Source of the DNA: an uncultured Chloroflexus sp.
GTDB lineage: Bacteria > Chloroflexota > Chloroflexia > Chloroflexales > Chloroflexaceae
DNA length: 58,070 nucleotides
NCBI RefSeq assembly: GCF_937129525.1
Contig: NZ_CAKZNK010000068.1
Location: 1 to 58,070, forward strand
Reading direction: 5' to 3'
The notes below the pieces were generated by a model that was not told the DNA's origin, ran no database searches, and was given only the letters and a program-made list of their open reading frames with translations. The first letter of the stretch is position 1. Each line of letters opens with the position of its first letter. This document shows, piece after piece, positions 13,024 through 38,372 of this stretch. A program made the translations under genes and the position numbers.

Positions 13024-16000
13024 ATGTCGCGCAATAGCTCGTTTGCGAATACGCTACTTACACTCATCCTCATCCTGAACTTTTTACCGCTGTCTCTACT
13101 TCCTGCTAACGCCGCTGATTATACACCTGATCCTGATCTTGCTTCTGCCAGCGACGCACTGGTCGAAGCAATGGGAGACGAGATACCACCAGGCGAAGAA
13201 CCACCACCGATCACGCTTGAGCAAAGCGGTGTCAGTATTTCAATCCTGGCATCGCCGGCGCGCATTCGTGGTGGGGAGGATCTGATATATACCGTCTCGT
13301 ATGCAAATAACAGCGGGAGTGCGTTAAGCAATGTGCGCATCAAAGTGACGTGGACGTTCTGGTTTGGCTCTCGTCCATCAACGCTCAATGCCGATAAATA
13401 TCAGCAATATTGCGCTGCTACCGGCGCAAATGCCTGCGCTCCCATTAATGTAACCGGTCCAGCCGTGACACGCAGTGGTTCACCTGAATATAACTCGACA
13501 ACCAATGTTGGCAGCTACACCTACACGATTGGCGATCTGGCAAATGGCGTAAGTGGGAGTTTCCAGATCGCTTTGCGTGTTCCGGAAAATGTCTATCCGC
13601 TAATTGGCAAAGAACCGCGTCGTCCTTCAGCGTCGGCTGAACTCTTTGTCGGTAGTGAAAGCACAGCTCGCGTGGTTGCCAATTCATCGGCGCTGGTTGA
13701 AGGTCCGCTCTTCCGACTGGAAAAGGAGCGTACCGTCAGCGGGCTAAATCCGCGCATCTTTCCCACCCAGACGGGTGAGTTTCGGTTGCGTCTGAGCAAT
13801 GTTGATCGCGAAGACTCTATTACGGCAACGAATGTCAAGTTGACCGATGTAGTTCCTTTAGGCGCCGAGTTTGTCAGCAGTGTGCGAGGGCCTGATCGGA
13901 CGCCTTTCTTGCCGGCGCAAACGGTGGTTAACGGGCGGGTAGTGTTAACCTGGACGATCGATCAACTTGCTCGTGGTCAGACGATCGACATTTTCGTTAC
14001 CTTTCGCAAGCTCGATATCGAGCCATGTGACCGGATGGAAAACAAAAAAGCCGATTACTACGTGACCAGTGACGAGATCCCCTTCCAACCGGGTAGCGCT
14101 ACCAATCGTTACCAGATCCCGCCGCAAACCAGTAGCGTTTCATACAGTGTGCGTCCGCCTGTCGAAGTGGTCTTCGGTTCAACCCAGCCTGTCGTGTTCG
14201 GTGAACGCGGTAGCTTTACCTTCAAGGTGCGGAACTACTGGCCACAGGCCCTCAATGGATTGCGCGTAAATATTGTCTTGCAGCCTAACGTGCGCTATGT
14301 GCCGGGAAGCGCTAGCGCCGTTGGTACCTTTACTGCACAGGGGCCAACCGAAACAACTGGTGGAACGTTAAGCTGGCAATTCAACATGCCGGCAGGCACT
14401 ATAAGCACACCCGTTGAGCAGAGTTTCGCTTTCGAAGTAACCGGGCGTTATACCACTGAAGGCAATGAGACAACGGTGGGTAGTGTCGTGGTGCCTGCCG
14501 GGGTGCCACAGTTCTGCAATGTTGCCGATATTGGTGGCTTTAATGTAGTGCCACGCCTTGCAGTCGCCAAATATTCCGAGGCTGAACGAAGCGGCACGAA
14601 TTATATCGCCCGGAATAATCAACCATTCCAGTATGTCATCTCGCTGATCAACAACAGTTCGCAATCGATCAACGATATCAAGGTCTACGATTTGCTCCCT
14701 GCCGGCAATCAGGCTGATTTTTCTTATGTCGCAAACAGCGCAACGATTGATAGCGGTAATCCCGATGAGGCTACGCCTTTTGAGCCGATGATTAGTAGCA
14801 CACCAAGCGGCTCGCTTGAGCGCACGACCCTGATCTGGGAAGGTATCGACCTGGCGCCGGGCGAATCCCGTTATATCCGGTATAACGTGATTACGCGCGG
14901 CCAGTTGCTTAATCGCGCTTACTGCAATGATCTCGATCAGCAGCGCATGGTCAATGCTCTGATAAATCCTGATCCCTCCTTGAACGGTGAAGAGATTGAA
15001 TTTGTCAGCGCGCGCGCCTGTGTTCGCATTTCGCCAAACATTCAGATCAGCAAAGTCTTTAGCGATGCTGGTGGCGCTAATCTGGGAACGACGCGCATTA
15101 TCACCGGTCCGGTGCCGCCAGGTGGCCAGACGCTTTACTTCACGTTGACTATTACCAACGCTGAAACGGCTAACACTTATACCGCCGGTCTGGTTGATTT
15201 TGCTCCGCAAGAACTGGCATTTCAGGCGGTCGAATTCAGTAATCTACCCATTGACAAACGTCAACCTGAGATTAGCGGCACTAATCCCTGGACATGGCCA
15301 ACCCTGGCGATCCCCCCTGGCCAGACCTACACCGTGCGGATTCGCACACTCTTCAACCCGCCGTGTATCACCGATGAGTATACAAACCGGATCGGCTATA
15401 CCTTCATCGATCCGACCACCGGTCAGAGTTCGCGTGTATCGCCACGTCCGCCGATTGAAGCCGTTATTGACTATCGTTGCGGAACCAATCGGCTTGACTA
15501 CGACATTCAGGTGGATCGCGCAAACTTGAGCTTACGTGATCGAGGCCTCTTTACACTTAGGGTGCGAAATCTGAATGCAAACGCTCCCCTGAGCAATGTC
15601 ATCGCCTATGCCTTTTTGCCGCCGCGTTATCTCTACAGTCAGACGGTCAGTAACCACGGATTTGATGGCCAGCGTTCCTTGCCTGATGGCTATACTGAAT
15701 TGCGCTGGAGGATTCCCTCCATTCCAGCAGGGGGTCAGGTTGATGTGCTGTTCCGCGCTTTTTCTGCTGATGTAATCGGCTCAAGTCGGGTATATGCCCG
15801 CGCAACGGCTGACAACTTGCTCTCGGCAACGTGTGCGGCTCTAAATCGTTGCGCATTGTACTCTGTTGACGAACAGAGTCATCAAATGGCTTTCGTTGTG
15901 GTTACTACCCGTCCACTCCACACCTACACACCGCGAATCGAGGGTATCAACGAGTGCGCGGTAGCGGGTGATGAGCGGCTGTATACTCTGACGTTACTTA

Positions 16001-16770
16001 ATACGAACCTGATCCCCTACACCAATACGACCGTTACACTCACGCTGCCAATTGGATTAAGCTATGTTCGATCTGATAATGGCTTTCCAGCGCCGCAAAG
16101 TATCAATTACCTCACTACCGGCACTCAGGCAGGTTCAACCCAGGTCGTCTGGCGGAATCTAACCGTGCCGGCCAAGCCTTCCTCGGCTGATGTCAGTCAG
16201 TTGACGCTGCAAATCTTGTTGCGCGTCGGACAGGTTTGGAGCGATCAGGGAACCAGTGTTGAAGTGACCAGCCCTGACGGGATCATTCCACGCACTGATG
16301 GCGAGGTAGATCCAACGGTACGCATCTGTGTGACCGGGCCGGCAGTCGCCAAAACGGCAAGTATAACGACGTTGCCGCCCTTCATGCCGGGTGATCCAAA
16401 CCCGACATTCCTCTACCAGATCGAAGCAGTCAATCCGACGAATAGTTCTTATACTATTACCCTGCGTGATGTGCTTCCGGCTGGTCTGACCTACAATGCG
16501 ATGTTGCGCGGTTCAGCGCCGCAGATCAGTACCAGTAGTGGGCGGACTGTATTGACGTGGAATAATCTTACGGTGCCTGCCCAGAGTGGTAGCACGCCCG
16601 GACGGGTGAGCTTGCTCTTCCGGGTCACCGCTAATCCGGCACAGATAAACGGCGATCTGACCAATACGGTAAACATTGTGAATAGTTCAGTTGAGATAAC
16701 CGATCAATTGCTGGATGCGCCTGTTTCATTTAGCAGGCCGCAGCTCTGGATACCGATCGTTGTCCGTTAA
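13024..16770 (+). CDS. Large secreted DUF11-repeat surface protein
   Basis: The 1248-residue protein starts with a signal peptide (hydrophobic stretch TLLTLILILNFLPLSLLP, cleavage expected after ANA). The rest is a string of about eight Ig-like DUF11 (conserved repeat) domains. Their openings include GGEDLIYTVSYANNSG, GERGSFTFKVRNYWPQA and PNPTFLYQIEAVNPTNSS, each followed by a D(V/L)LPAG-type strand. Such proteins sit on the cell surface or are released, with adhesive or structural roles. There is no LPXTG or transmembrane anchor; the protein ends abruptly in LWIPIVVR, matching the end of another secreted protein in this window (36669-38372). The ribosome site AGGAG (13014-13018) sets the start. 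It appears monocistronic. Confidence 0.88.
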   Translation: MSRNSSFANTLLTLILILNFLPLSLLPANAADYTPDPDLASASDALVEAMGDEIPPGEEPPPITLEQSGVSISILASPARIRGGEDLIYTVSYANNSGSALSNVRIKVTWTFWFGSRPSTLNADKYQQYCAATGANACAPINVTGPAVTRSGSPEYNSTTNVGSYTYTIGDLANGVSGSFQIALRVPENVYPLIGKEPRRPSASAELFVGSESTARVVANSSALVEGPLFRLEKERTVSGLNPRIFPTQTGEFRLRLSNVDREDSITATNVKLTDVVPLGAEFVSSVRGPDRTPFLPAQTVVNGRVVLTWTIDQLARGQTIDIFVTFRKLDIEPCDRMENKKADYYVTSDEIPFQPGSATNRYQIPPQTSSVSYSVRPPVEVVFGSTQPVVFGERGSFTFKVRNYWPQALNGLRVNIVLQPNVRYVPGSASAVGTFTAQGPTETTGGTLSWQFNMPAGTISTPVEQSFAFEVTGRYTTEGNETTVGSVVVPAGVPQFCNVADIGGFNVVPRLAVAKYSEAERSGTNYIARNNQPFQYVISLINNSSQSINDIKVYDLLPAGNQADFSYVANSATIDSGNPDEATPFEPMISSTPSGSLERTTLIWEGIDLAPGESRYIRYNVITRGQLLNRAYCNDLDQQRMVNALINPDPSLNGEEIEFVSARACVRISPNIQISKVFSDAGGANLGTTRIITGPVPPGGQTLYFTLTITNAETANTYTAGLVDFAPQELAFQAVEFSNLPIDKRQPEISGTNPWTWPTLAIPPGQTYTVRIRTLFNPPCITDEYTNRIGYTFIDPTTGQSSRVSPRPPIEAVIDYRCGTNRLDYDIQVDRANLSLRDRGLFTLRVRNLNANAPLSNVIAYAFLPPRYLYSQTVSNHGFDGQRSLPDGYTELRWRIPSIPAGGQVDVLFRAFSADVIGSSRVYARATADNLLSATCAALNRCALYSVDEQSHQMAFVVVTTRPLHTYTPRIEGINECAVAGDERLYTLTLLNTNLIPYTNTTVTLTLPIGLSYVRSDNGFPAPQSINYLTTGTQAGSTQVVWRNLTVPAKPSSADVSQLTLQILLRVGQVWSDQGTSVEVTSPDGIIPRTDGEVDPTVRICVTGPAVAKTASITTLPPFMPGDPNPTFLYQIEAVNPTNSSYTITLRDVLPAGLTYNAMLRGSAPQISTSSGRTVLTWNNLTVPAQSGSTPGRVSLLFRVTANPAQINGDLTNTVNIVNSSVEITDQLLDAPVSFSRPQLWIPIVVR

Positions 16771-36668: not shown

Positions 36669-38372
36669 ATGGCACTCCGGTCTTTGTTGCGGCGAGTCTA
36701 CCGCAACCGTTGGTATGCGCTGATTGTCATATGGATGTGTGGATTGCTCTTTCCATTCGCCATCTCGCCATTGCCAGGGCAAGCCAGCGCGCAGAACTTG
36801 ATCCAGGATGGTAGTTTTGAACAACAGGGAGACTCGTGGGAGGCGTGCGGGAATGTGCAGCTTGTCGATGGTCAGGCTGCCGGTTTCGAATTTGTCAATT
36901 CTGGTCGGTACGCTGTCGTGATGGGGGTTGAGGCTGATGGCAGTGATTGTCCACAATTGCCGGATTTAAGCACTCCCCGGCAGATACTCAGCCAGCCGCT
37001 GACGATCCCGGTCAGCGCGCCCGCAGTAACCGTTTCGTTCTGGTTTCGCGCCGCGACAGGAATGACGATTGATGTCTTTCTCGCCCGCGGTTTTTATCAG
37101 TTTGATCCGAATTTAGGTGGAGTCAAGCTCGGAACCTTTGCGACCGATCAGCCGCCGGGATGGCAATTGTACCGCACTGTATTGCAAGGCGAGCAGCTTG
37201 CGCGCGTTCGCGGGCAACCGGTGCGATTCTCAATCGTGATTCAGGGCAACGCTAGCGTAGAGTCGGGCGCAGTCTTGCTGATCGACGATGTGAGTGTGAT
37301 TGCCGCCGATGGGCGGACAACGGCGGCGCCGTTGCCGCCGCGACTGCGCGGCGATGGGAGTCGCCCGCTGGCCGTCACGCGAGTCAGTGGTCAGAATCGC
37401 TGGCTGTATCGGATGGATACCGATGGCGGAAATGTCCAACTGATCTATCAGGGATTGGTCGGTAATGTGCGCGCGCCGGCCTGGTCACCCGATGGCCAGC
37501 GGCTGGTTGTCGTTGATCATAACACATGGCCGTGGCCGGTGCCTGATCCCGACCCACAGAATAATCTGATCGCTTCGGCAGTGACGGTTCTCAATGCTGA
37601 CGGTTCAGGCGCCAGACAGGTCTACCAAACCCAGAGTCAGAAAGGATCGCGCTGCCCGTTTGTGCCCTCTGCCGGCGAGCCGGTTGAGCGGCCTTCATTC
37701 CTGGTGCGCCTTTCCGGTGTGCAATGGATGCCGGACAACACGCGCATCGCAATTGCCCAAACCGGGTTTGGCGCCTTCTGCAATGGCAATCTTGCCCAGG
37801 GCGGGCGCGGCGATCTGCTCATTCTGGCGCCTCCCTCACCACAGACACAAACCCTTGCCCCGCACGCGACACGGCCAGCCGTTCACGCGAATGGCCGGAT
37901 CTTGTTTGACGGTTTTGATCTGTCATCGTCACGCAGCAATCGCGCCGGAGGAGTATGGGAGATCGACACCAGGACGCAACCGCCGGGCGAGACTCGATTG
38001 ATTGCCTCTGAAGCCGACCGGGCACCGGTATGGGCACCTGATGGTCGTCGATTTGCGGTGATTCGTCTCACGACCAGCCCTTCTGCCGATGTGAGTGAAC
38101 GCTGGTTTGCGATCATGCTGTACGATCGCCAGAATCTTGCCAATCCGCGCATGCTGTTGTTTGCCGATCATGGCCGCAGCATCAGCAGTCTAAGCTGGTC
38201 ACCGGATGGCGCATACCTCTTGTACACGCTTGAGCGGTTCGATGGTCGAACCGACATCTGGTGGCTCGATGTAGCGACCGGCGCCACCGGACCGATCACG
38301 ACTGATGGCAATGCGCTTGAAGCAGTATGGCGGCCAGGCAACCGTTTATTTGTGCCGCTAGTTGTGCGCTGA
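36669..38372 (+). CDS. Secreted PD40 beta-propeller protein with an N-terminal beta-sandwich domain
   Basis: The 567-residue protein has a signal peptide (YALIVIWMCGLLFPFAI, cleavage expected near QASA). A first domain, NLIQDGSFEQQGDSWEACG onward (about residues 35-210), resembles DUF642 or carbohydrate-binding jelly-roll modules. TolB-like PD40 blades follow, with the recurring WSPDG motif (PAWSPDGQRL, PVWAPDGRRF, LSWSPDGAYLL). It is expected at the cell surface or in the medium. The last residues are LFVPLVVR, immediately after the final blade and before the stop, the same type of ending as in the DUF11 protein at 13024-16770. ATG 36669 is chosen because it gives a standard signal peptide. 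Confidence 0.83.
   Translation: MALRSLLRRVYRNRWYALIVIWMCGLLFPFAISPLPGQASAQNLIQDGSFEQQGDSWEACGNVQLVDGQAAGFEFVNSGRYAVVMGVEADGSDCPQLPDLSTPRQILSQPLTIPVSAPAVTVSFWFRAATGMTIDVFLARGFYQFDPNLGGVKLGTFATDQPPGWQLYRTVLQGEQLARVRGQPVRFSIVIQGNASVESGAVLLIDDVSVIAADGRTTAAPLPPRLRGDGSRPLAVTRVSGQNRWLYRMDTDGGNVQLIYQGLVGNVRAPAWSPDGQRLVVVDHNTWPWPVPDPDPQNNLIASAVTVLNADGSGARQVYQTQSQKGSRCPFVPSAGEPVERPSFLVRLSGVQWMPDNTRIAIAQTGFGAFCNGNLAQGGRGDLLILAPPSPQTQTLAPHATRPAVHANGRILFDGFDLSSSRSNRAGGVWEIDTRTQPPGETRLIASEADRAPVWAPDGRRFAVIRLTTSPSADVSERWFAIMLYDRQNLANPRMLLFADHGRSISSLSWSPDGAYLLYTLERFDGRTDIWWLDVATGATGPITTDGNALEAVWRPGNRLFVPLVVR

Follow-up and report, generated by a model that had tools for sequence, protein, structure and literature searches.

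Both LPXTG and PEP-CTERM signals contain a conserved proline residue. The LPXTG/sortase and PEP-CTERM/exosortase systems resemble the protein endings described here in having a short conserved proline-containing motif near the C-terminus of exported proteins. In the PEP-CTERM case, the portion of PMC1569441 consulted gives the layout as the motif, a transmembrane helix, and a basic cluster. The MYXO-CTERM/myxosortase system is described, in the portion of PMC11980579 consulted, as a phylum-wide C-terminal tag carried by dozens of proteins per genome. It is similar to the present case as a phylum-wide tag on many proteins, but it requires an invariant cysteine and a transmembrane helix, whereas none of the 15 tails found in the genome of origin has a cysteine among its last eight residues or is followed by a helix. 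Short terminal peptides read by a receptor are represented by the peroxisomal signals PTS1 and PTS2, C-terminal in one form and N-terminal in the other; being eukaryotic, intracellular and unrelated in sequence, they offer an analogy only. Close as well are two NCBIfam models, NF050076 (sort_motif_YLP) and NF053834 (ultrashort_CTERM), both named "YLP-box putative sorting motif-containing protein".

The window, by which we mean the whole analysed stretch of 58,070 nucleotides, encodes two large proteins of interest. The DUF11 protein (13024-16770) has the C-terminus SRPQLWIPIVVR and the PD40 protein (36669-38372) the C-terminus PGNRLFVPLVVR, each followed by the stop codon. The features are as follows.

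13024..13113, + strand: signal peptide of the DUF11 protein (from the sequence, with cleavage placed by eye after ...LLPANA; scored SP).
16678..16743, + strand: linker from the last DUF11-type domain to the tail, limits approximate (from the end of the TIGR04226 match; differs among orthologues).
16744..16767, + strand: C-terminal tail LWIPIVVR, YLP-box-like, Chloroflexus dialect (sequence, pattern search, orthologues).
36669..36791, + strand: signal peptide of the PD40 protein (from the sequence, with cleavage placed by eye after ...GQASA; scored SP).
38328..38336, + strand: Trp-Arg-Pro, the likely natural end of the PD40 propeller (invariant in alignment A1; distant tail-less homologues).
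38337..38345, + strand: linker Gly-Asn-Arg (alignment A1; length and sequence vary in orthologues).
38346..38369, + strand: C-terminal tail LFVPLVVR, YLP-box-like (sequence, patterns, orthologue alignment; the orthologue in genome G107 scores with NF050076).

The preliminary description had reported a common ending of the two proteins, LWIPIVVR and LFVPLVVR directly before the stop, encoded by different codons (16744-16767 and 38346-38369) and placed after unrelated final domains, and all of this was confirmed. Signal peptides open both proteins, as judged from the sequence and a crude predictor, and there is no transmembrane segment downstream of the motif, with which both proteins end. The label "uncharged-basic" does not describe the ending as a whole, which is aromatic and hydrophobic with a proline and has a single arginine as its last residue.

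Two similar endings could arise by chance, or each could be the final beta-strand of its own, unrelated domain, and the PD40 tail taken alone could be mistaken for such a strand, as PD40 repeats hold similar W-x-P-D-G-x-R-hydrophobic strands. All ten PD40 orthologues, which were collected by likeness over the whole protein, have a linker of differing length and sequence ahead of the tail, and the proline and arginine of the tail are invariant. Over the 11 aligned PD40 proteins, too, the tail proline never changes and F or Y fills the aromatic position, against a drifting linker. Among 15 distant homologues, two (L292 and L294) stop exactly at W-x-P, one (L299) stops five residues past W-x-P and one (L301) five residues past the Trp, and the others end differently. 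The variable linker makes it hardly plausible that the tail is the last strand, and the refutation foreseen for such a case was not borne out for the PD40 protein. The last-domain boundary of the DUF11 protein is less sure; its TIGR04226 match, below the cut-off of that model, stops at residue 1218. The tail is retained in DUF11 orthologues of Chloroflexus-like genomes (LWVPYITR, LWVPLVAR, LWVPLVVR), more distant ones end with IIYVPILQY, IFMPLIRR, IYLPMALK or IYLPLIVRR, and two (L263, L264) have an altered tail. In L260 and L269 (G107), the orthologue of the DUF11 protein is broken into two overlapping frames.

The genome of origin is Chloroflexus-like and 4.48 Mb in size. When the ending was written as a loose DNA pattern, 33 matches were found in this genome, compared with 24 for the same pattern read backwards as a control. 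A locus was available for 30 of the 33: fourteen matches end long frames, one (C72) ends an 80-residue frame with YLPLVTR, and in the remaining 15 the stop is missing or the frame has 73 residues or fewer. A tighter pattern added a further tail on contig C94, so that 15 frames, each of at least 87 residues, end with [FYW]-[VILM]-P-[LIMVF]-[VI]-x-R-stop. In the seven genomes of the genus the tighter pattern gave 74 matches against 2 backwards. The same type of tail is carried by trypsin, subtilase, CAP, kelch, M23, GSDH, laminin-G, DUF11 and beta-helix folds. The shared ending is real and far from chance; these counts and the many folds, together with the PD40 linker and the homologues that stop at W-x-P, leave the chance or last-strand explanation with next to no probability.

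The tail is associated with export. Of the 14 tail genes of the genome of origin taken as complete by the gene caller, 13 (12 of them clean) received a signal-peptide score, compared with 13 of 105 neighbors (Fisher p = 1.7e-9), the latter being the other genes of the same stretches and not a random genome sample, and the scores coming from our own crude predictor, which gives evident false positives among cytosolic proteins. The enrichment among signal-peptide proteins that the preliminary description had proposed to look for is thus present. The one gene lacking the score (L065) is truncated by a contig end. The case that is not clean is L064 (1442-5881), a large beta-helix/DUF11 tail gene in which an in-frame stop cuts the signal peptide encoded upstream from the remainder; its score must stem from within the remaining frame. 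The exported protein at L077 (1374-1637), of 87 residues, has a complete tail and a weak NCBIfam likeness, far below the cut-off, to the CPR-type pilus protein PamT.

An unselected sample from G107 (20 evenly spaced stretches of 20 kb, 256 genes) held only three genes with the ending, a small number: 2 of 27 genes scored as having a signal peptide, 1 of 150 scored as neither exported nor membrane, and none of 65 transmembrane-type and 14 lipoprotein-type genes. The single non-exported case comes from a CAP-domain gene broken into two frames (L082:9512-11239): the ending is on the 3' half, and the adjoining 5' half opens with a signal peptide. In the same genome, a duplicated pair at L081:5001-11900 has two tail proteins in alternation with two smaller exported proteins that end with GMLFDD[VF]IIAP. 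One tail protein of G165 received a lipoprotein-type call from the crude predictor.

In respect to novelty, the suggestion that a sorting or processing signal of this kind would be undescribed does not stand, as NF050076 and NF053834 already name a YLP-box putative sorting motif. Their curated cut-offs are 15 and 10 bits, respectively. Of 58 canonical tails, taken from loci retrieved with a YLP pattern, NF050076 matches 55 and NF053834 matches 51, and the tails of other lineages match in 16 of 38 cases for either model. None of the 15 tails of the genome of origin in alignment A3, both window tails included, matches either model at E up to 10, a result in which HMMER filters may hide weak matches. 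Among 60 other C-termini there is at most one possible match to the YLP models (25 of 84 families listed). Over 121 genomes NF050076 matches 66 at E up to 1, with 39 above the cut-off; it also has false positives, since 4 of 14 control genomes match, one above the cut-off. The genome of origin has four NF050076 matches, of which the two listed are C72 (16.4 bits) and C10:4816-4842, the latter shortly before the end of a kelch-like protein. In G107, the orthologue of the window PD40 protein, with the tail VYLPMVIR, reaches 17.1 bits with the same model, above its cut-off.

The window tails thus share with the YLP-box models the place, the residue order, the kind of proteins and the lineages, and they are short C-terminal motifs on exported proteins as the models describe, but they match neither model and have W-I-P or F-V-P where the models have Y-L-P. 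They are a dialect of a named motif with no explained mechanism. The name and description of the models carry nothing on mechanism, N-terminal copies or dialects, and a literature search, with most subscription journals outside its scope, showed no bacterial account of the motif among the titles and abstracts listed.

The recurrence of such endings in Chloroflexota is real by pattern counts across genomes. At least one tighter-pattern match is found in 73 of 301 Chloroflexota genomes, many of them singletons at control level; all 19 genomes of family f1 together have 194 matches (6 backwards), and strict-pattern matches number 8 to 13 per Chloroflexus-like genome. Candidatus Viridilinea mediisalina is among the tail-rich genomes, with 26 matches. 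A prokaryote-wide pattern scan returned at least 120 stretches, with 81 matches among the 80 loci listed; among these listed loci, by our own count, frames of at least 60 residues are ended by the match in 51 of 55 Chloroflexota-labelled cases, compared with 5 of 26 elsewhere. The 41 genomes behind them, all picked for already having at least one match, comprise 18 labelled Chloroflexota with 202 matches (control 8) and 23 others with 40 (control 14). In one record labelled Pseudomonadota (L128), a 582-residue frame with a signal peptide ends with KVYLPMVTR, the sole match of that genome, which we attribute to transfer or contamination. Many of the tail counts use patterns that themselves require the proline and the basic residue, and in alignments A3 to A5 these residues are invariant or frequent by search design, which proves nothing alone.

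The consensus can be written as hydrophobic-[Y/F/W]-[L/V/I/M]-P-hydrophobic-[V/I]-x-[R/K], sometimes with an added N, followed by the carboxy end. The last positions differ by lineage, and these dialects (R, K and [KR]N endings) are new here. The seven genomes of the genus have 74 R-stop, 2 K-stop and 1 [..]N-stop endings, while the six Herpetosiphon-like genomes (f2 g6) have 15 R-stop (control 3), 27 K-stop (control 0) and 30 [..]N-stop (control 2); the K-type figures are bare pattern counts. Eight of the 30 N-ending Herpetosiphon-like matches, of the form FVPFVD[QRK]N, were discounted as tails, being a repeated look-alike without proper frames: of three such loci, L319 has it in a 25-residue frame, and L330 and L331 have no motif-bearing frame of 20 or more residues. 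Over all genomes, 14 of 20 N-type loci fetched carry the tail on a frame of 197 residues or more. Arginine could be favored through codon use in GC-rich genomes, so the dialects may be partly compositional.

The motif also occurs away from the C-terminus. NF050076 matches, which are selected with no reference to a stop codon, were read in context in 46 cases (41 of the first 48 listed and 5 further ones in the same stretches; the seven left out were already included, had short or very long frames, or, in one case, were overlooked). Among these 46 listed matches, 34 lie 0-3 residues from the C-terminus and two lie 5 and 8 residues away. In two (L349, with a poorly defined start, and L370) the copy follows an N-terminal export signal and precedes a P/T-rich stretch, and in two others (L352 and L375) it lies in an inter-domain stretch of an exported protein, namely between cadherin-like and CARDB-like domains in L352. 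The remaining six are in proteins of cytosolic look, four of which (L348, L353, L364, L366) are from one family with an internal YLPLV.R that is probably a false positive of the model.

A glucosaminidase-like protein (Pfam E 0.0084, below the cut-off), the gene of which adjoins a tail-bearing CAP gene, has a further copy, an L-P core of this kind, immediately after its Tat-type signal. In 15 aligned orthologues having this copy, which count as one origin, the L-P core is invariant; the Tat signal model matches six of them and NF050076 four (E up to 10), and the copy in G107 scores 15.9 bits with NF050076, above its cut-off. A Pro-rich linker follows the copy in most orthologues outside the genus, and 5 of 20 relatives of the protein (L253 to L257) have no copy. 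Also new here are the copies that follow N-terminal export signals or sit in linkers between domains; the linker copies may be relics of gene fusion. A translational arrest peptide was set aside because the N-terminal and linker copies exist.

A strict C-terminal sorting signal, with a protease or transpeptidase that recognizes the tail, cuts or conjugates it, and so fixes the protein to the surface, would agree with the mostly exact C-terminal position (34 of the 46 listed matches), with the proline conserved as in LPXTG and PEP-CTERM signals, with the basic residue at the end and with the NCBI name. The copies behind export signals and in linkers speak against it, as C-terminal processing could not be their common function. 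Moreover, the window proteins end with the motif itself: the LPXTG sequence and the helix and basic cluster of the LPXTG and PEP-CTERM signals are missing, and their enzymes do not track the tail. A sortase (PF04203) is matched in 210 of 301 genomes at E up to 0.001, but neither of the tail-bearing genomes G165 (7 matches) and G255 (4 matches) belongs to this set, and in four f5 genomes three sortases each go with zero tail matches. An exosortase (PF09721) is found in 25 of 301 genomes, all outside the order (0 of its 30 genomes), and two of these, G011 and G181, also contain tail matches. The co-occurring transpeptidase that had been anticipated was therefore not found in the sortase and exosortase families over 301 genomes. 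Clustering of 330 genes (tail genes and neighbors, 54 and 14 loci) gave no convincing partner; the neighbor groups found in three loci are, by eye, response regulators and HlyD-like proteins. We regard a strict sorting signal as rather doubtful.

The hydrophobic run and basic end would also suit a non-specific anchor in a membrane interface or one coating an apolar outer layer, with the terminal Arg/Lys as a cap; such an anchor could function at either end of a protein. The residue order seen in the PD40 tails (Pro and the F/Y position in 11 of 11) and in the L-P core of the 15 Tat-type copies would not be preserved in a plain hydrophobic patch, and such an anchor is improbable.

The envelope itself has been described in part. 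According to the portion of PMC13319060 consulted, Litorilinea aerophila has a multilayered envelope of unknown make-up, in which the identity of the layers is unclear, and diderm-like envelopes are cited for Viridilinea mediisalina and Chloroflexus aggregans. Ca. Viridilinea mediisalina is among the species for which such an envelope is reported in the absence of diderm signature genes, and BAM and LPS genes are noted to be missing. An envelope without known outer-membrane machinery, as given in that portion, and the enrichment of the ending in exported proteins would be consistent with a chaperone or secretion-pathway signal for transit through the layers, the protein being free afterwards. 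On the other hand, P/T-rich linkers before some tails (L098, L111) resemble wall-spanning tethers, and no machinery for such transit was identified; the chances of a transit signal appear slim.

Unrelated exported carriers, linkers, dialects and freedom of position argue for reading the tail as a short linear peptide for docking, which would serve as an address label on exported proteins, and we give this reading roughly an even chance. Candidate copies of such a motif are seen in the sequences at N-termini and in linkers; they suit docking better than they suit a C-terminal sorting signal that is cut off, and dialects by lineage are what a co-evolving receptor would give. A flexible linker would join the peptide to exported proteins, in most cases at the C-terminus and sometimes behind an N-terminal export signal or between domains. 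Export by Sec or Tat would come first; the peptide, as an extended strand around the Y-L-P core, would then bind to a putative receptor common to these bacteria, and this binding would keep enzymes and adhesin-like proteins of many unrelated kinds in the envelope. The likely site, as our best guess, would be the multilayered outer envelope of filamentous Chloroflexota, with which the tail-rich genome of Ca. Viridilinea mediisalina would agree. To the contrary, the preference for the exact C-terminus and the terminal basic residue suggest that the carboxy end is read, and the N-terminal and linker copies, which offer no carboxy end to read, count against docking; a receptor for the tail was also not found. 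A more far-reaching form of the docking reading takes the YLP-box as a position-independent extracellular address peptide, with a logic like that of peroxisomal targeting; a lineage-specific receptor in the atypical Chloroflexota outer layer would read it and so retain dozens of unrelated proteins per genome non-covalently in a layer without known outer-membrane machinery. It is put forward tentatively, as a possibility we would not expect to hold in full.

The Chloroflexus dialect escapes the present models (0 of 15 tails), so the tagged proteins are probably under-counted in annotation. The copies behind N-terminal export signals and in linkers move the question from a cutting enzyme to a binding partner, and a tag of about eight residues offers a direct handle on how the Chloroflexota envelope holds proteins.
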